Shown here: positions 9,090 to 19,218 of the stretch, in pieces
Position numbering within the stretch: position 1 is the stretch's first letter
Layout of the letters: each line of letters opens with the position of its first letter
Virus record (IMG/VR): IMGVR_UViG_3300020176_000074
Coordinates: 1 to 27,257 of that record
Direction: 5' to 3' (one strand)
Source of the DNA: a virus
Length of the DNA: 27,257 bases
Made by a program: the position numbers and the translations under genes
The notes under the pieces: model-generated
Told to the model about the DNA's origin: nothing
Seen by the model: only the letters and a program-made list of their open reading frames with translations
The model's database searches: none

Positions 9090-9541
9090 TCCTTTACGCC
9101 AGGCAGTTGGGGTGGTTTCACGCGACCCCGACTGCTCAGAATCCACACAAGAAAATTTCTAATCAAGAAAAGCCGCGAAGCAGACTTGAAAAAATCATCG
9201 ACAACGGCGGCACGCCTTTGATGCCTGACATTGGCGATGGTAGTTACCTGGTTGAGTACTGGAATGATCTTGGGTTGTTTATGGAAGGGCAAATGGGGCC
9301 AGTGGCACTATCTGCTCAAGAGATTCAATCCTGGCAGAGTGGGGCGCAGTTGAGTTTGAATGCCTGGGAGTTCAGGGTGGTGATGCAAATGTCCAGAGCG
9401 TATTTAAGTGAGTTGCGGGCGGGTGCAGAGCCTGAATGCCCTCCACCCTACGGCAATCCGGCGAACGAGTTTGATCGCGCCACGGTTTCAAAAAAAATCG
9501 GCAATGCATTTAAGTCTCTATTGATGACGAGGAAGTCGTAA
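9065..9541 (+). CDS. T-part of tail assembly chaperone, made by -1 frameshift (gpGT-like)
   Basis: This frame has no convincing start of its own: the first usable codon is a TTG at 9086 without a Shine-Dalgarno, inside the upstream stop. Read instead from the slippery site, it adds about 158 residues to the 127 encoded before the slip, giving a fusion of about 285. The added part is mainly helical (LILYARQLGWFHATPT, then LSLNAWEFRVVMQMSRAYLSELRAG). The stop overlaps the tape measure start (TAATG, 9539-9543). The role, recruiting tube subunits to the tape measure, is known for lambda gpGT and inferred here. Confidence 0.75.
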   Translation, partial: YEGIKQDLILYARQLGWFHATPTAQNPHKKISNQEKPRSRLEKIIDNGGTPLMPDIGDGSYLVEYWNDLGLFMEGQMGPVALSAQEIQSWQSGAQLSLNAWEFRVVMQMSRAYLSELRAGAEPECPPPYGNPANEFDRATVSKKIGNAFKSLLMTRKS

Positions 9542-12500
9542 TGTCTACCAAAGTCGGTCTGCTGACCATCGAGATGGCAGCTAATATCGCTCGTCTTGAG
9601 ACCGATATGCGCCGCGCGCGCAATACTGTTGACAATACGATGCGCAGCATTTCGCGCAGTGCAAGCATGGCGATGTCGTCCATTCAAGGTTTGATTGGCG
9701 TCATGTCAGTGCGTGAACTGGCTCAGATCTCGGATCAATTCAAAACGATTAATGCCACGCTTGCCTTGGCGACAAGATCTGCCGAGGCCGGTGCTGTTGC
9801 ATATGAGCAGGTGCTGGACATTGCCATGCGAAGCGGGCAGGCGATTGAAGGAGTGGCGGTGACCTATCGAAGGTTTGCTGAAAACTCAAGGGATCTTGGA
9901 ATCACGCAGGATCAGGTTGCAAAAGCCACCGAAACCGTAGCCCAAGCGCTTGCTTTGTCCGGGGGAAGTTACCAGAGTACGCAGGCCGCACTGGTGCAGT
10001 TTAGTCAGGCTCTTGCTTCTGGGACGCTGCGCGGTGCCGAACTTAACTCAGTGCTTGAGCAGGCTCCTAGGCTTGCCCGTTTGATTGCGGACGGCATGAA
10101 TGTATCGGTGGGTTCGCTACGCAGCCTTGCTGAAAAAGGAAAAATCACTTCTGATGTGATTATTAAAGCGCTTGAGGACCAAGCCAGCACAATCGAGCGA
10201 GAGTTCGGTCAGCTACCAATGACATTCGCTCGTGCTGTAAACAATTTTCAGACTGCGGTGACTGATCTCGTTGGAAATGTAGAAAAGAATTTAGGAATAT
10301 TTGGAGCGTTAGCGGGTGTAATTAATTTAATTGCACAGAACTTGTCATTGCTGGTGAACGTAGCGATCGCCGCAGCTATTACTGCCATGGGGCGGTTCAC
10401 GGTGACAGTTGTCTCGTTAATATCCACCAAAATCGCTCTGGCCGCGAGTATGGGTGCTGCCACAGCCGCGACCATTACCTTTAACCGAGCCTTGGCAGTT
10501 CTGGGCGGACCTGCAGGTGCAGTCATTACTGCCGCCAGTGCGGCCTACGCGTTTCGAAGTGAGCTCGGGCTGGTCTCCAAAGAGTACGCTAAAGCAATCA
10601 CGGCCACGGATGAGTTCAACGAAGGCATTAAAGCTACGGGTGGCTTCTGGTCTGCGCTGGTCATGCTCGGCTGGACAAACCCATTCTCGTCGCTTGAAGA
10701 GCAGGTGAGCAAGTACCGAGCTGAGGTTGAAAAGTTAAAAGACGAAAAATCAAAACTTAATACAGTTCAGCAGGCGTTTCTAAACACTGCAGAAAAACTC
10801 GAAACGGCTCAGGGTCGCTTGTCGTATTTTGAAGCACTGTTGGCCAAACAGACGCGAGCAAGCAACCAGGCGCGCCAAGATGCAGCGACAGGAACGGACA
10901 CGCATACCGCGGCTTACACCGCGATGATTGCATCTGCGGATGAATTAGTTGCAAAGATGCATGAGGAGTTTTCGCTTATTGGGTTGACCAACGAAGAGCG
11001 CGCTGTATCTATTGCTATGCGCAAGTTAGAGGAGCTTGGAATTCGCTCCGGTACCGAAGCATTTGAAAAATATCTCAAAGAGATTATCGAGATACAGCGT
11101 CGCATACGCGTTAAGAAGGAATGGGTTCAGCTTGCAGATGACTCCGCAAAAGCTGCCAAGCGTGAGTCTGAAGAATACGACCGCCTTATTACGACGCTAA
11201 AAGAAAAAATTGCAACGATTGAAATGGAAAACCAAACATTTGGTTTGACTAATCGCGAGCGAGAGCGCTCGATTTTTTTGCGTGAATTGGAAAACGTCAA
11301 GATTCAGGACCGCAATGCTTTGCTTGAAAAGTATGACGAAGCCACATTAATTAAAGAGGCTAATGATCTAAGAGAAAAAAGCACCAAAGAACGGCTTGAG
11401 AAGGAAAAGGATTATGCCAAAGAAGTAGAAAAAATTAATGATCAAATTGGGCAGTCATTAGCAGATGCGCTGATGGATGGTGGAAGGAGTGCGAAAGACT
11501 TCTTGATCAGCATGTTTAGAACAATGGTCTTGCGGCCATTGCTACAGCCAATTATCTCTGGCGTTGCTGGTGCGATTGGACTCGGGACAGCAGGCGCCGC
11601 ATTAGCTGGGAATAGTGGAGCAGCCGGAGCAAGTGGGGCGGGCGGAACCATGCTTAGCATGGCAGGTGGTATCAAGTCTGCATATGATGTTGTGATGGGA
11701 GGATTTGCATCTGTCGGATCATCATTTACCAACATGGGTGTCAAGCTAGGTTCACAGTTTATTTCTGATTTCGGTTATGGGTTTGGCAGCGGATTTACAT
11801 CTGGATCAGGGGTCACTGCAAACGCAGGCGCCATGTTTGGAGCAGCTGCAAATGCTGCGGCCGGTATTGCAGGGGGCATTGCTCTTGGAAATTTAATTTC
11901 TGGCGATAAAAAACTTTTTGGCAGTCAATATGCAACCACTGCGACTGGAGCAGTTGCAGGAGCCGTGATCGGCTCGGTAGTTCCTGTCATAGGCACTGCA
12001 ATTGGAGCAGTGCTTGGCGGTGCTTTAGGCGGTGTAATCAACGCTGCTTTTGGATCAAGCCCAAAAGAATATACGGATTCAGGAATTTCCGGCACGCTTT
12101 CAGCCATGACAGCAGATGTTCAGGAATATTCCAAATGGAAAAAGGCGGGCGGTTGGTTTACAAGCACTAAGCGCGGCACGGAATTCACCGCGCTCAATTC
12201 AGAGTTGCAAAAGACGCTTGATGCATCGCTTCGTGGCATTGGAGGATCGATTGAATTCTTTGCAAAGTCCCTTGGCCAACCAACCGATGCAATTAATAGC
12301 TTTTCTCAAGACATCAACCTCAGCTTTAAAGATTTATCTGAGCAAGAGATCCAGAAAAAGATCCAAGATGCCGTATCTGGTTTTGAAACTGGGTTGATTA
12401 ATTCAGTATTTCCGACATTGAACACATTTTCCTATGTTGGGGAAACCATCGGGGTTACCTTAAAACGCCTGTCTGACAGACTGATTGCTGTGAATAATGT

Positions 12501-13191
12501 TTTTGGTGCGCTTGGGCTCAAGCTTAATGAGCTCAGCTTGACCGGGGCAAATGCAGCAAACACACTGGTTGAGCTTACTGGAGGCATTGAGGCCTTTACT
12601 CAAAAAGCAGATTTTTATTATCAGAATTTTTATTCTGTGCAAGAGAGGTTGAATAAAAACACCGACAAACTGAAAGAGGTGTTTGCACAACTTGGCATGG
12701 CTTTGCCTACTACCAGAGAGGGTTTTAGAACAATATTTGAGCTGTTTCAGCAGGCGGGCAGCCCCGAGCTTGTCGCTGCGATGCTTAACGTTTCAAGTGC
12801 TTTTTCAGATTACATCAGCGTTGTTGAGCAGGCAGAGGCACAAACAGTCGAGTTGATGATTGCTAGGATGCAAGAAGGCGCAGCGATTGAAAACGGTTTA
12901 TTCCAGTCGCTTGGAGAAGTTGCTGAGCTACGCAAGCGAGAACTAAGTGCGCTAAATGAATCAAATCGTGCACTCCAGCAGCGGGTATTGGGCTTGAAGA
13001 TGCGAAAAATTCATATTCATTGGCTGTTGAAGCAACGACACAGGCATTTGATGAGCTTAAACAGGCAATTTCAGTTGAGCTTCAAAACGCACTTGATTCG
13101 CTTACAAAAGATTTTGATGCCTTTACGGATAGCATTGCTCAGCAGCAGCAAGCGCTTGAGGCGGCCAAGCAAGTCGCAAGTCAAAACCTGA
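9541..13191 (+). CDS. Tape measure protein, N-terminal part (frame broken near 12989-12996)
   Basis: Sets tail length and is ejected with the DNA. The first 200 residues are the lambda-type tape measure domain (SVRELAQISDQFKTINATLA through LRGAELNSVLEQAPRLARLIADGM). Hydrophobic segments near 260-345 and Gly/Ala-rich repeats near 650-840 follow, with the LISMFRTMVLRPLLQPI motif typical of lambda gpH relatives. From about residue 1152 onward the sequence becomes unusually basic (LLKQRHRHL, KRLRRPSK) and unlike the family, because the true frame continues at 12996 in the next reading frame. Length as read is 1216 residues, of which the last 64 or so are probably not native. Starts at ATG 9541, overlapping the chaperone stop. 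Confidence 0.9.
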   Translation: MSTKVGLLTIEMAANIARLETDMRRARNTVDNTMRSISRSASMAMSSIQGLIGVMSVRELAQISDQFKTINATLALATRSAEAGAVAYEQVLDIAMRSGQAIEGVAVTYRRFAENSRDLGITQDQVAKATETVAQALALSGGSYQSTQAALVQFSQALASGTLRGAELNSVLEQAPRLARLIADGMNVSVGSLRSLAEKGKITSDVIIKALEDQASTIEREFGQLPMTFARAVNNFQTAVTDLVGNVEKNLGIFGALAGVINLIAQNLSLLVNVAIAAAITAMGRFTVTVVSLISTKIALAASMGAATAATITFNRALAVLGGPAGAVITAASAAYAFRSELGLVSKEYAKAITATDEFNEGIKATGGFWSALVMLGWTNPFSSLEEQVSKYRAEVEKLKDEKSKLNTVQQAFLNTAEKLETAQGRLSYFEALLAKQTRASNQARQDAATGTDTHTAAYTAMIASADELVAKMHEEFSLIGLTNEERAVSIAMRKLEELGIRSGTEAFEKYLKEIIEIQRRIRVKKEWVQLADDSAKAAKRESEEYDRLITTLKEKIATIEMENQTFGLTNRERERSIFLRELENVKIQDRNALLEKYDEATLIKEANDLREKSTKERLEKEKDYAKEVEKINDQIGQSLADALMDGGRSAKDFLISMFRTMVLRPLLQPIISGVAGAIGLGTAGAALAGNSGAAGASGAGGTMLSMAGGIKSAYDVVMGGFASVGSSFTNMGVKLGSQFISDFGYGFGSGFTSGSGVTANAGAMFGAAANAAAGIAGGIALGNLISGDKKLFGSQYATTATGAVAGAVIGSVVPVIGTAIGAVLGGALGGVINAAFGSSPKEYTDSGISGTLSAMTADVQEYSKWKKAGGWFTSTKRGTEFTALNSELQKTLDASLRGIGGSIEFFAKSLGQPTDAINSFSQDINLSFKDLSEQEIQKKIQDAVSGFETGLINSVFPTLNTFSYVGETIGVTLKRLSDRLIAVNNVFGALGLKLNELSLTGANAANTLVELTGGIEAFTQKADFYYQNFYSVQERLNKNTDKLKEVFAQLGMALPTTREGFRTIFELFQQAGSPELVAAMLNVSSAFSDYISVVEQAEAQTVELMIARMQEGAAIENGLFQSLGEVAELRKRELSALNESNRALQQRVLGLKMRKIHIHWLLKQRHRHLMSLNRQFQLSFKTHLIRLQKILMPLRIALLSSSKRLRRPSKSQVKT

Positions 13192-14414
13192 GCGGGCTGA
13201 AAAGCTTATTTGATTTTATTGGCGATCAGATTGCTGAACTGACAGGATCGACCGCTCAAACTGTTGCCTCCGGGGTGGCGTTTATTCAAAACGCTCTTTT
13301 CGTTGCAAAGGCAAGCGGTTATCTGCCTGAACAAAAAGATTTGGCTTCTGCGGTTACTGCAGCAAAGGGCGGCCTGAGTTCTGAGAACTTTGTTAACGCT
13401 TTTGAAATGCGCCGCGCCAACCTGTTGTTGGCCAATGATCTTTTTGCACTTAAGGAAATTGCCAGTGAGCAAATGACCGATGCAGAAAGACAAATTGAAA
13501 TAGCTGAGCAGCAATTGTCTTCGCTCCAAGAACGATTGGAACAAGCTCGGATTCAGTACGAAAACAGCACCAATGCAACAAATGCCTATTACGACGCCCA
13601 ACTGGTTGCTGCACAGCAGCAAATCAACGTATTAAACGGGATCAATACATCGGTCTTGAGCGTTTCAGCAGCTACAAATAATCTCGCAATGATGATGGAC
13701 CAGCAGCGACAGGCAACTGTTTCACTTGCTCAGGCAAATGCAGATGCGCTGGTTGCAGCAAAAGAGGCAGCATCCCGACGTGAGGCTGAGTTGTCATTGG
13801 CCAAAGCCGCTGCGGAAGAGAAAGCTCGGGCAGCGAGCGAAGCTGCTGTTGTGGCAGCTAACGCAGCAATTGAGCGCGCAAGAATTGAAGAGGCAGCAAG
13901 AAATGCTGCAGCTGCTGCCGAGGCAGAACGGCAAAGACAGGCTTCGGCAGCAGCTGCACAAGCTTCAGCAGAGGCTGCAAAAGTTGCTGAAATGAACTAT
14001 CTTCGAGGACAAAATCCATTCAGCAAAGCATGGAATAGAGCTGTCCAGCAAAAGTACCCAGATCTGTACTACGAAGTCCGCCTTGCGTATGCTTCCGAAA
14101 ACTATGACTGGGCGTCTGGTGGTGGCGCAGCAACTGGTGGATATGTATCGCCAGGCATGATGCTGGTTGGTGAGGAAGGTCCGGAGCTTGTGAATTTCCG
14201 CTCACCTGGCATGGTGTACACCTCAGCGCAAACCCAAAGTCTGCTTGGAGGTAATGGCGGAAATGAGCTTGCTGCAGAATTGAGATCGTTGAGAGAAGAT
14301 CAAAGAGCTCAGTCCAAGGCGATGGTCGCATTGCAGCTCAGAATGACAAAGGTCATCGAGCAATGGGAAGGGGACGGCTTGCCAGCCGAGCGATATGAAG
14401 GGGCACCAGCATGA
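13020..14414 (+). CDS. Tape measure protein, C-terminal part (after frame break)
   Basis: This frame is open from 12960; the nominal TTG start at 13020 has no ribosome site. Reading back through 12996 gives GLEDAKNSYSLAVEATTQAF, which joins naturally onto ALNESNRALQQRVL of the upstream frame. It contains long Ala/Glu coiled coils (about residues 140-325) and the conserved tape measure terminus TGGYVSPGMMLVGEEGPELV with FRSPGMVYTSAQT. So 9541-14414 is best read as one gene of about 1,624 codons with a 1-base deletion, either a real mutation or a sequencing error. Stop overlaps the next start (ATGA at 14411). Confidence 0.85.
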   Translation: MAVEATTQAFDELKQAISVELQNALDSLTKDFDAFTDSIAQQQQALEAAKQVASQNLSGLKSLFDFIGDQIAELTGSTAQTVASGVAFIQNALFVAKASGYLPEQKDLASAVTAAKGGLSSENFVNAFEMRRANLLLANDLFALKEIASEQMTDAERQIEIAEQQLSSLQERLEQARIQYENSTNATNAYYDAQLVAAQQQINVLNGINTSVLSVSAATNNLAMMMDQQRQATVSLAQANADALVAAKEAASRREAELSLAKAAAEEKARAASEAAVVAANAAIERARIEEAARNAAAAAEAERQRQASAAAAQASAEAAKVAEMNYLRGQNPFSKAWNRAVQQKYPDLYYEVRLAYASENYDWASGGGAATGGYVSPGMMLVGEEGPELVNFRSPGMVYTSAQTQSLLGGNGGNELAAELRSLREDQRAQSKAMVALQLRMTKVIEQWEGDGLPAERYEGAPA

Positions 14415-15826: not shown

Positions 15827-16876
15827 ATGGCCGGTAAATATCCAGTCGTACTAAATGGTTCTGTCTTGCAAGAGCTTCAACCTGAAGATCATTTAATCGG
15901 CGACATAATGCTGACAGGATTATTTAAAAAATCGCTTCCTCGGACTCGTCTTTTTTATTCTCCGTCTGTAAATGCAATTTCTACATCACAGCAATTTTAT
16001 GTTGAAGTAGGAGGAAGCCTTCTCAACATTGCTGCAAATACAAGTGTTGTTATGCCCGCACTTGTCTCTGGCGGAGATTACGCAATTTATGCCTGCTCAG
16101 ATGGTTCTTTGAGGGCCGATCTTAACTGGTCATATCCAACGGGGTACACAAGTTTAAATAGCCGCTTTATCGGCTGCGGTCATTATGCTCCAGGAGGTAA
16201 TGCTGCAGCGCAGTCCGGGGGTAATACTACCCCCGCATTTAACGCATATAGTTTTTTTGATTTGACGTATAGGCCAAGTAGAAAAGATTGGCGCGGCATG
16301 ACGACAGACCCTGGTGACGGGTTTTGTGTAGCTATTTATTTACTAAATACAAATCCTGACGTTAATGGAGCCTCAAAATATAACGTCGCAATTGCAGATG
16401 GCGCATCTCCGCCAAAAATTCCATTGGTGTTCGGTGGAAATGGCTCTAGCAACTATGCAAACTTTAACTGGTGGAATGCAAGTGAAGCCTTGGCAGCGCA
16501 AGGCTTGCGGATGCCAACATACGGCGAGTTCTCTTCCTTTGCCTATGGCACGACCGAGGCCTCGTCCATAGGAACAGATCAGGGCAGCACTATTTTAAAT
16601 GCTGCATACACATCAAAGTGCGGGGTAATCCAATCATCTGGAGTCATGTGGGTGTGGGGTAATGAGTTTGGGGGCGGTACCGCAGCAGCTAGTTGGGTAG
16701 CAAATACTGACGGAAGAGGATCAACTTATCAACTTGAGAACGCCGTGCTTTTGGGTGGCAACTGGGGCAATGCGTCGGACGCCGGTTCGCGCGCCTCGAT
16801 CTGGAACAGCCCGCCCACGAGCTCGGGTGGCAGCGTCGGGGCTCGCGGCGTCTGTGACCTCCTGATTCTTGATTAA
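15827..16876 (+). CDS. DGR target: variable tail-tip protein with C-type-lectin (FGE-sulfatase-like) fold
   Basis: 349-residue receptor-binding candidate whose C-terminus is rewritten by the DGR. The N-terminal 150 residues look like a fibre/attachment region. The C-terminal part has the CLec/formylglycine-enzyme-like signature: NWWNASEALAAQGLRMPTYG near 220, GVMWVWGNEFGGG near 275, then VLLGGNWGNASDAGSRAS and GARGVCD at the end. The last 44 residues (306-349) hold the variable repeat; residues 314, 319, 325, 328, 329, 332, 334, 336 and 337 differ from the template. The Trp, Gly and Arg framework is fixed while Asn-rich template codons vary, as in Mtd and TvpA proteins. GTGAGG precedes ATG 15827. 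Confidence 0.93.
   Translation: MAGKYPVVLNGSVLQELQPEDHLIGDIMLTGLFKKSLPRTRLFYSPSVNAISTSQQFYVEVGGSLLNIAANTSVVMPALVSGGDYAIYACSDGSLRADLNWSYPTGYTSLNSRFIGCGHYAPGGNAAAQSGGNTTPAFNAYSFFDLTYRPSRKDWRGMTTDPGDGFCVAIYLLNTNPDVNGASKYNVAIADGASPPKIPLVFGGNGSSNYANFNWWNASEALAAQGLRMPTYGEFSSFAYGTTEASSIGTDQGSTILNAAYTSKCGVIQSSGVMWVWGNEFGGGTAAASWVANTDGRGSTYQLENAVLLGGNWGNASDAGSRASIWNSPPTSSGGSVGARGVCDLLILD
16741..16857 (+). repeat. DGR variable repeat (VR)
   Basis: 117 bp at the 3' end of the variable gene, matching 17294-17410 with 10 mismatches and no gaps. Mismatches (VR positions): A to G at 16767, 16809, 16821, 16826, 16827, 16833, 16835; A to T at 16800; T to G at 16781; T to C at 16811. So 8 of the template's 21 adenines are changed against 2 of its 96 other bases. 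Confidence 0.95.
16836..16857 (+). promoter_or_regulatory. Initiation of mutagenic homing (IMH) region
   Basis: The last 22 bp of VR are identical to TR, GC-rich, and free of adenine for 21 bases. In Bordetella BPP-1 such a block at the VR 3' end is where cDNA integration starts. Identity stops exactly at 16857 (VR continues CCT, TR continues GGA). Confidence 0.7.
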
Positions 16877-16892
16877 GGCGGCGACAGCCGCC
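16877..16892. promoter_or_regulatory. DGR target-site hairpin/cruciform with GACA loop
   Basis: GGCGGC-GACA-GCCGCC, a perfect 6-bp stem with a tetraloop fitting the GRNA rule described for DGR target recognition hairpins downstream of VR in Bordetella phage. It starts 19 bases past the VR end and directly after the stop codon of the variable gene. No such structure follows TR. No T tract, so a terminator is unlikely. Confidence 0.7.
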
Positions 16893-16909
16893 GATTGATT
16901 TAACCGTAT

Positions 16910-17290
16910 ATGGAACCTGAAAAAGAAGTTTTGCAAAGTTATGAGCAGATGAAAGTCGTTGATAAGTATGAAACGGTTATTGCCTACTTGTATCCAATTG
17001 CTCAAAATATTCCGAGGAGGCATGGCGTTGCAAAGGCAATGTTTACAGAATGTCTTTTAGAGCAAGTAAAAAATATTGTAGAAGCGGGGAAGTCTGGCCA
17101 GATTTCACGTCTCTACATCGCAGATGCGGGTCTTTCGCAACTGCGATATTGGCTGCGGTTTTTGTTAAGCAAGCAAGTTCGTGGAATTACACCGCACCAA
17201 GTCGAGACAGCACAAGTGCTTATTGCCGAGGTGGGGCGATTGCTGGGGGCTTGGATAGCAAAACAAAAACGCAGAGGGCAACATGGATAA
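16910..17290 (+). CDS. avd: DGR accessory variability determinant (Avd), four-helix bundle
   Basis: 126 residues, nearly the size of BPP-1 Avd (128). All-helical and basic: QMKVVDKYETVIAYLYPIAQ, RRHGVAKAMFTECLLEQVKN, ISRLYIADAGLSQLRYWLRF, and HQVETAQVLIAEVGRLLGAW with a KQKRR tail. Avd forms a positively charged pentamer that binds the reverse transcriptase and the TR RNA and is needed for mutagenic homing. Placed between VR and TR as in Bordetella phage. The start at ATG 16910 has no clear Shine-Dalgarno; ATG 16949 is an alternative. Its stop overlaps an ATG at 17283 that opens a frame through TR. Confidence 0.9.
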   Translation: MEPEKEVLQSYEQMKVVDKYETVIAYLYPIAQNIPRRHGVAKAMFTECLLEQVKNIVEAGKSGQISRLYIADAGLSQLRYWLRFLLSKQVRGITPHQVETAQVLIAEVGRLLGAWIAKQKRRGQHG

Positions 17291-17293
17291 ATT

Positions 17294-17410
17294 CGCCGTG
17301 CTTTTGGGTGGCAACTGGGACAATGCGTCGGACTCCGGTTCGCGCGCCTCGAACTGGAACAACTCGCCCACGAACTCGAATGGCAACATCGGGGCTCGCG
17401 GCGTCTGTGA
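17294..17410 (+). repeat. DGR template repeat (TR)
   Basis: 117-bp copy of VR carrying eight AAC/AAT codons where VR has largely been changed. Adenines sit at codon positions that mostly give replacements when mutated. The sequence ends in the same adenine-poor block as VR. It begins 3 bases after the avd stop and is the RNA template for the error-prone cDNA. Confidence 0.95.
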
Positions 17411-17577
17411 GGACAAGGAATTAGTATTTTTAGTGCTCTGCTGCCGCCACGGCGCAGTGGGCCGACCTACTTCCATGTGGTCAGCCATGTTGTCCTGCTT
17501 CGGCAAACACCTTTGGGGGTCTGGTATAGCGCTTAGTAACCACCGTGTTGTGGTGAACAGCGCGGCCAGCTTTTGAT
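17411..17577 (+). ncRNA. Spacer of DGR template RNA, between TR and reverse transcriptase
   Basis: 167 bases with no recognised gene. In BPP-1 the corresponding spacer RNA binds Avd/RT and supplies the primer for cDNA synthesis. Here it holds potential stems, for example CTG-C-T-GCCG/CGGC-G-CAG at 17438-17457 and ACCAC/GTGGT near 17540-17555. The extent of the functional RNA is inferred. Confidence 0.55.
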
Positions 17578-18564
17578 ATGGTCAAAAGATGTTCAGATTT
17601 AATTTCAAAAGTAGCCGATAAAAATAATCTCATTTCCGCTTACGCAAAAGCATCGAATGGTAAACGACAGACTTGGGGTTATCTTGAGTTCAAAGAGTAT
17701 GCGGCAAAAAATCTGCTAGAAATGCGCGAGCAATTGTTAGATGGAAATTGGAGCCAAGGAGTATATCGGCAGTTTATGGTTTACGAACCAAAGCCTCGAC
17801 TTATTTCAGCTTTAGACTTTAAGGATCGGGTGGCTCAGCACGCTCTTGTGAATATTATTGGGCCAATCTTTGAGTCCACTCTTTTGCCTTATACATTTGC
17901 CTGTAGACGAGGCATGGGAACTCACGCGGGAGTTCGGCACGTTCAGGCCGCAATGCGTAAAACGCAAAGCACGCATTTTTTAAAAACAGACTACAGCCGT
18001 TTCTTTCCATCCATTGATCGAATGCGCCTTCATCAGCTTATTGAACGCAAGATCAAATGTAAAAAAACTTTAGAAATTATTAAGGCTATGGTCCCAAATA
18101 CTGGCCATGGTCTGCCTATCGGAAGTTTGACGAGTCAATTGTTTGCAAACGTATATGGCGGAGTTATAGACAGGTTTATTCATTTTGAACTTGGAGCTCG
18201 TCACTGGGCTAGGTATATGGATGACATTGTCATCTTGTCTTCAAACCCATATGAATTACGAGAATGGTTTGAGAGCATTGAGCAAACAAGCAAAGAAAGG
18301 CTTGGCTTGGGTATAAGCAAGTGGCAAATGTCATCCGTTACGCGAGGAGTAAATTTTTTAGGCTATCGAATTTGGCCTCGCCATAAGTTGCTTAGAAAAA
18401 GTTCAGTTACTAGCGCGAAAAGAAAAATAAAACGATTTATAGCGACAGATGATCGTGAATCACTTGGTCGATTTTTGACCGCATGGCGTGGGCATGCAAG
18501 CCACGCAGACACTTGCCATCTTTTTAATTATTTGGAGAATACGTATGCAATTCAATGTCATTAA
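17578..18564 (+). CDS. DGR reverse transcriptase
   Basis: 328-residue reverse transcriptase lacking other domains. Visible motifs: PKPRLISALDFKDRVAQHAL (RT2) with Arg74; FLKTDYSRFFPSID (motif A, Asp138); LPIGSLTSQLFANVY (motif B); ARYMDDIVIL (YMDD, Asp215/Asp216); GVNFLGYRI. The IGxxxSQ form of motif B, in place of the usual QGxxxSP, marks the DGR class. Ile181 and Arg74 fall at the same numbers as the BPP-1 residues tied to adenine infidelity. It reads the TR RNA and makes mutated cDNA with Avd. ATG 17578 follows TGA 17574-17576 and lacks a clear ribosome site. The codon use is more AT-rich than the head genes. Confidence 0.95.
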   Translation: MVKRCSDLISKVADKNNLISAYAKASNGKRQTWGYLEFKEYAAKNLLEMREQLLDGNWSQGVYRQFMVYEPKPRLISALDFKDRVAQHALVNIIGPIFESTLLPYTFACRRGMGTHAGVRHVQAAMRKTQSTHFLKTDYSRFFPSIDRMRLHQLIERKIKCKKTLEIIKAMVPNTGHGLPIGSLTSQLFANVYGGVIDRFIHFELGARHWARYMDDIVILSSNPYELREWFESIEQTSKERLGLGISKWQMSSVTRGVNFLGYRIWPRHKLLRKSSVTSAKRKIKRFIATDDRESLGRFLTAWRGHASHADTCHLFNYLENTYAIQCH

Positions 18565-18793
18565 TACTCGCGAAGATCTTGATTTGTTAATTGGTTCGGC
18601 TGAGCATCAAAAATTTATGTTGTATTTAAAGGGCTCAATGTCACAAAAGAGAGATGTCCAAGAGTACCCAGTTGGCTATGGATCTCCCGGCTACGAAGGG
18701 CCATTATTGACGCCAATTTGGCAGGATTTCGAAGATCTTTCAGTTATTGAGCGATTTAACTTTGCCCCAAGTGATTTTGATTTGATTTTTTAA
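18545..18793 (+). CDS. Small acidic protein overlapping the end of the DGR reverse transcriptase
   Basis: 82 residues starting at ATG 18545 inside the last 20 bases of the reverse transcriptase gene, with GGAG at 18534-18537 (7-base spacing). An upstream in-frame ATG at 18488 lacks such support. The sequence is acidic and aromatic with TREDLDLLIGSAEHQKFMLYLKG (helix), a Tyr/Gly/Pro turn (VGYGSPGYEGPLL), then IWQDFEDLSVIERFNF. I recognise no family. By position it could be a chaperone for the variable tail protein or an extra DGR factor; both are guesses. 18794-18903 after it is T-rich without a convincing terminator. Confidence 0.75.
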   Translation: MQFNVINTREDLDLLIGSAEHQKFMLYLKGSMSQKRDVQEYPVGYGSPGYEGPLLTPIWQDFEDLSVIERFNFAPSDFDLIF

Positions 18794-18903: not shown

Positions 18904-19218
18904 ATGGACAAAGACCCAACTTCATATTCCTTACTCACATATGCCTGGGTATTTCTATTGTCCATTCTGGGGGGGGTGGTGAACTTCATGCGCAAATTGC
19001 ACGATGGTCATGTTCGGGCCTTCAACATCATCGAGTTCGTGGGAGAGCTTGTAACTTCTGCTTTTGCGGGAATTATTACGTTTTGGCTTTGTGAACACGC
19101 TCAATTTGCACCGCTCATTACGGCAGCACTCGTCGGTGTGTCGGGCCATGCAGGCAGTCGAGCGATCTTTATGCTTGAGGAATTTCTAAAAAGTAAGTTT
19201 CCGGGGGCAAAGCTATGA
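18904..19218 (+). CDS. Holin (LydA-like)
   Basis: 104 residues with about three membrane segments: YAWVFLLSILGGVVNF (about 13-28), IEFVGELVTSAFAGIITFWL (about 42-61), and FAPLITAALVGVSGHAG (about 67-83), then a charged tail. This fits the LydA/phage holin pattern and releases endolysin at a set time. Its stop overlaps the endolysin start (ATGA at 19215). A run of eight G at 18969-18976 lies inside the first membrane segment. Confidence 0.82.
   Translation: MDKDPTSYSLLTYAWVFLLSILGGVVNFMRKLHDGHVRAFNIIEFVGELVTSAFAGIITFWLCEHAQFAPLITAALVGVSGHAGSRAIFMLEEFLKSKFPGAKL

Follow-up and report, generated by a model that had tools for sequence, protein, structure and literature searches.

Genome context and composition of the cassette

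Is the locus at positions 15,827 to 18,564 a complete diversity-generating retroelement (DGR), which protein does it diversify, and is a cassette of this type at work in nature? The window, namely the whole stretch of DNA analyzed here, comprises the 27,257 bp of an IMG/VR virus record and has a gene set of the temperate siphophage type, in which the cassette is surrounded by the following genes.

Upstream: genes for terminase, portal, protease, HK97-type capsid, head-tail connectors, tail terminator, major tail protein and tape measure
Downstream: holin, endolysin and spanin
Opposite strand: tyrosine integrase

The closest named capsids, those of the Vibrio phage Marilyn-type and Burkholderia KS9 phages, showed approximately 53-55% identity to that of the window, and no close DNA relative of the first 12 kb was found among 50,697 phage records. 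The tape measure gene was split near 13000-13190 into two overlapping frames (9541-13191 and 13020-14414), which reflects either a frameshift or a sequence error. The cassette itself comprises the features listed below.

15827-16876, + strand: mtd, the target gene, encoding an Mtd homologue of 349 aa with a C-type-lectin fold and the VR at its C terminus
16741-16857, + strand: VR, 117 nt, 91% identical to TR
16853-16872, + strand: IMH-equivalent block TGTGACCTCCTGATTCTTGA, identical to BPP-1 at 19 of 20 positions and at the same place in the alignment
16877-16892, + strand: DNA hairpin/cruciform GGCGGC-GACA-GCCGCC, 19 nt 3' of VR
16910-17290, + strand: avd, accessory variability determinant, 126 aa (bAvd PF22296, 2e-30)
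17294-17410, + strand: TR, 117 nt
17435-17570, + strand: structured DGR RNA (spacer, Sp; Rfam RF03022, 101.7 bits)
17578-18564, + strand: DGR reverse transcriptase (RT), 328 aa (PF00078)
18545-18793, + strand: Bbp4-like gene, 82 aa, overlapping the 3' end of the RT gene, 56% to BPP-1 Bbp4

This element is a complete and intact DGR of the BPP-1 type, a kind already well studied. The initial annotation had claimed a complete DGR with all parts in order, and each of the defining parts of the BPP-1 type was indeed present and intact, including the VR at the 3' end of the target gene and the IMH block after VR; the structured RNA and the Bbp4-like gene are two parts beyond those listed earlier. We put the probability that a BPP-1-type DGR in a temperate siphophage-type genome diversifies Mtd by mutagenic homing at roughly 93%. 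The full tropism-switching cassette of BPP-1, a podovirus, is placed here in a phage body of the siphophage type with a long tape measure, a tail terminator and a major tail protein. The two elements have in common the gene order mtd-avd-TR-brt followed by bbp4, the Mtd target, Avd, the RT (60% identity to BPP-1 brt), the IMH, the GRNA hairpin and the spacer RNA (BPP-1, AY029185). On the other hand, the TR/VR homology in the window ends at the start of the IMH and spans 117 bp (134 bp in BPP-1), and the spacer bears a longer hairpin, common to the contig L003 and close relatives, which is also the sole difference from the Rfam RF03022 Phage_DGR RNA. These differences from BPP-1 leave the kind of the element unchanged. 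The DGRs of the Vibrio VP58.5/VHML type resemble that of the window in the RT (34-39% identity) and in A-specific TR/VR pairs but possess another target protein and another small gene after the RT gene (phrog_5714/2432).

The target protein

The target protein was matched by PF21916 mtd_2nd (7e-17) and phrog_11262 (9e-108), and it was 47-48% identical to BPP-1 Mtd (E-value of 9.5e-90 against PDB 1yu4). A CLec fold had been assigned to the 349-aa protein with structure prediction proposed as a check; the predicted model matched the crystal structures of Mtd in Foldseek with an E-value of 1e-32 and a TM-score of 0.81, the confidence of the model being moderate (mean pLDDT of 67). The gene order, in which the tape measure gene is followed by two more genes and then by mtd, is the reason that we call this Mtd homologue a tail-tip protein, and its position at the tail tip is probable on the same ground.

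In BPP-1, Mtd is the receptor-binding protein, and the DGR changes which bacteria the phage attaches to. By homology and fold, the Mtd of the window would likewise act as a receptor-binding tip, of which diversification would change the host range. We consider it unlikely that the DGR is active on a protein with no part in setting host range, for example one that binds a non-receptor surface or just strengthens adsorption. Approximately the first 43 residues are unlike those of BPP-1 Mtd, so the protein would be mounted differently, but residues 43-349 are clearly Mtd, a protein established as the receptor-binding protein in BPP-1. We regard the divergent N terminus as in keeping with mounting on a different tail.

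Mtd-type tail proteins like that of the window also occur in Synechococcus phage S-CBS3 and Marinomonas phage P12026, in which neither RT nor TR was found next to the corresponding gene. Among the contigs, Mtd genes with no RT or TR nearby were observed in L042, L048, L054, L088, L089, L090, L094, L099, L006 and L007, and most of the RT is missing in L047, which is close to BPP-1. We rejected Gallionellales as a host lead: the MAG L087 has Mtd at 70%, but this genome matches the window capsid just weakly.

The VR/TR pair, the IMH and the hairpin

The 117-bp VR/TR pair, 553 bp apart, stands as initially annotated. Ten differences separate the two repeats, and eight of them fall on TR adenines (21 adenines among 117 sites; hypergeometric p = 1.1e-5), in agreement with the concentration at template adenines noted before. 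The other two lie at template T, with T>G at 16781 and T>C at 16811. The fraction of changed TR adenines (8/21) is slightly below the family mean. Downstream of the IMH, the GRNA-loop hairpin read from the sequence was borne out: the loop GACA fits GRNA, and none of 200 shuffles folded as well as the DNA hairpin (-8.8 kcal/mol). BPP-1 requires a hairpin after VR, and the published examples have stems of 7-10 bp (PMC3240598), compared with 6 bp in the window. We count this short stem, the two changes at sites other than adenine and the proportion of changed adenines against the main reading.

An ATG-initiated open reading frame of 97 aa (17283-17576) crosses TR in the frame of VR and is likely fortuitous. 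An inverted match of 16/17 nt was observed between TR (17363-17379) and 19031-19047; as the latter lies inside the holin gene and the match ends at 17 nt, we took it as chance rather than an accessory target.

avd, spacer RNA, reverse transcriptase and the proposed mechanism

The assignment of avd between the hairpin and TR was confirmed by PF22296 and by an NF033474 match above the cutoff, and the protein also matched PDB 4dwl (2e-49) and 8ub7_B. The RT, to which the motifs IGxxxSQ and YMDD had been attributed, carries PIGSLTSQ and YMDD in its translation and matched phrog_1423 (6e-109) as well as the solved BPP-1 RT (PDB 8ub7_A, 1.2e-135).

The spacer aligned with RF03022 over the full length of the model (1-127/127) at a score well above the cutoff of 50 bits (E-value of 4e-17). 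In 46 relatives, 20 of the 26 consensus pairs were changed on both sides with the pairing kept, and the GGTCAGC core was almost invariant. Taken by itself, the RNA of the window spacer gave no significant z-score for its minimum free energy (-0.46), and the structure is evident only through covariation and the Rfam match. A17483 in this core aligns with the priming adenine of BPP-1. The spacer recruits RT-Avd, and an adenine within it primes cDNA synthesis (PMC12875486).

By analogy with BPP-1, from which cDNA priming, complex formation and the chemistry of retrohoming are carried over, the avd-TR-spacer transcript would fold through the spacer, bind the RT-Avd complex and prime cDNA synthesis into TR, and the RT would miscopy the template adenines. 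The mutated cDNA would then replace VR, its 3' end being guided by the IMH and the hairpin. TR would remain intact while VR is rewritten repeatedly, and the phage progeny would thereby carry Mtd with differing receptor-binding surfaces.

Activity of the cassette type in nature

We used approximately 100 relatives to examine the natural activity of this cassette type. The nearest one is the contig L003 (88% in Mtd and 81% in RT), which possesses its own TR and VR; the synonymous sites between the window and L003 were saturated, and dN/dS was not well computable. The TRs of the two differ at 10 sites with no A in either, and each VR agrees with its own TR at all 10, indicating that VR was rewritten from TR in each lineage. 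The initial annotation proposed comparing VR among reads or related isolates, where identity throughout would have refuted its claim. Where two distinct contigs share the same RT and TR at 100% identity, the VRs differed at 15 (L032/L035), 20 (L055/L056) and 14 (L052/L053) sites, and the VRs of L149/L150 were likewise diverged with RT identity of 99.9% and a single TR difference, which answers that test for the relatives. Across 55 distinct Mtd cassettes, the share of TR positions changed in VR was 49% for A, 0.05% for C, 0.3% for G and 2% for T, and the order mtd-avd-TR-RT was kept in dozens of loci. Both comparisons, that of the window with L003 and that of relatives with the same TR and different VRs, argue for a one-way transfer from TR to VR. 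Because VR tracks TR and VRs diverge under identical RT and TR, we regard this cassette type, on sequence comparison, as active in nature. The cassette of the window phage itself is probably active at present as well. The inventory of parts, the target fold, the adenine-specific differences, the tracking of TR by VR and the VR divergence among relatives are all read from the sequences themselves.

In a decayed cassette, the last rewriting of VR would lie far back, and the repeat, frozen since then, would be gathering ordinary mutations. Such decay might explain the two non-adenine changes in VR and the below-average number of changed adenines, and this family does lose DGRs, as shown by several Mtd loci that lack an RT despite room downstream. 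Nevertheless, we consider decay improbable, as RT, Avd, the RNA, the IMH and the hairpin are all intact in the window, VR tracks TR, and T>G at non-adenine sites is common in relatives with freshly diverged VRs and need not mean age. The view that VR and TR are a plain duplication, held similar by recombination and not subject to mutagenic homing, has a negligible probability and is contradicted by the adenine specificity (p of 1e-5 here; 49% versus at most 2% in the family), together with the directionality and the RT, Avd and RNA adjoining the repeats, although 117-bp direct repeats of 91% identity are able to recombine and TR itself appears overwritten by a diversified copy in L113 and L122.

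The TRs of the latter two contigs are poor in adenine (7 A in L122, 3679-3797; 14 A in L113, 730-846). The median adenine share of TR was 22%, corresponding to approximately 26 A, and the TR of the window with 21 A is mildly low. It is possible that the L122 and L113 TRs were diversified themselves, either by VR copied back or by TR being struck by its own cDNA.

T>G changes at non-adenine sites

When the non-adenine VR/TR events were counted once per TR cluster with the repeat edges left out, T>G made up 21 of 36 events in the BPP-1-type cassettes and 14 of 21 in the VHML-type ones. T sites changed more than C/G sites in both groups (p of 1e-9 and 3e-6, respectively), whereas G/T accounts for 9% of the ordinary substitutions in the RT gene. 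The carriers of T>G include the window (at the T>G site given above), L046, L084, L087, L109, L111 and others. In later contigs with previously unseen TRs, T>G comprised 7 of 10 non-adenine events; no such excess was seen in a third group, the gut phage DGRs (1/8).

As some of the T>G changes are synonymous (GGT>GGG, CGT>CGG and GTT>GTG), selection on the protein is not the whole cause, and a recurrent TCC>GCC site contributes to the count. In vivo, misincorporation of dC is the commonest error of the BPP-1 RT at A (PMC12875486), and T>G would therefore fit dC placed opposite U. Judging from these counts, T>G is possibly a second mutagenic channel besides adenine, with the DGR RT perhaps misreading template U (to G) at approximately 1-2%, beside A at approximately 50%. 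Some residual probability stays with selection, shared descent or sequence error in the metagenome contigs as the source of the excess. Our literature search found no mention of T-to-G together with DGR and template repeat, and an earlier mention may exist.

The Bbp4-like gene as a companion of mtd

A profile built from 89 relatives detected the Bbp4-like gene in 110 of 124 BPP-1-type RT loci with room downstream. Of 21 Mtd loci that lack an RT, 13 also carry this gene, frequently as the one that immediately follows mtd, and it was found in none of the 119 loci that represent DGRs from two further RT groups and have no Mtd. The reverse search from Bbp4 yielded 80 viral loci, 70 of which had more than 1.5 kb upstream, and Mtd was found upstream in 68 of these 70; RT was detected in 52 of the 68 loci and not in the other 16. 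These co-occurrence counts take in near-identical contigs. One of the two loci without Mtd, L344, has a Bordetella-type RT and Bbp4, but unrelated sequence takes the place of the upstream part of the cassette, with the switch at the spacer (~3480); this locus represents either a rearranged element or a chimeric assembly.

The family had no match in Pfam or NCBIfam and no significant match in PHROG. The profile found no sequence match in PDB, and Foldseek and VIA gave no relative of the predicted model, neither of which rules out any fold. No literature mention of bbp4 together with Bordetella phage was found, an earlier mention being possible, and this companion gene appears to be undescribed. 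Overall, we lean toward the view that the Bbp4-like proteins (~80 aa) are an undescribed family dedicated to Mtd, which stays with Mtd where the DGR has been lost and is missing from DGRs that diversify other proteins. Judged by position alone, the family most likely acts as a chaperone for the assembly of Mtd or as its adaptor. For the best-studied DGR, this offers a testable lead that Mtd seems to be accompanied by a partner protein of its own, Bbp4 in BPP-1. Some members of the family carry an additional domain at the C terminus, phrog_6034, to which no function is assigned, and a relative of this domain in Curvibacter phage P26059A sits after a tail fibre gene.
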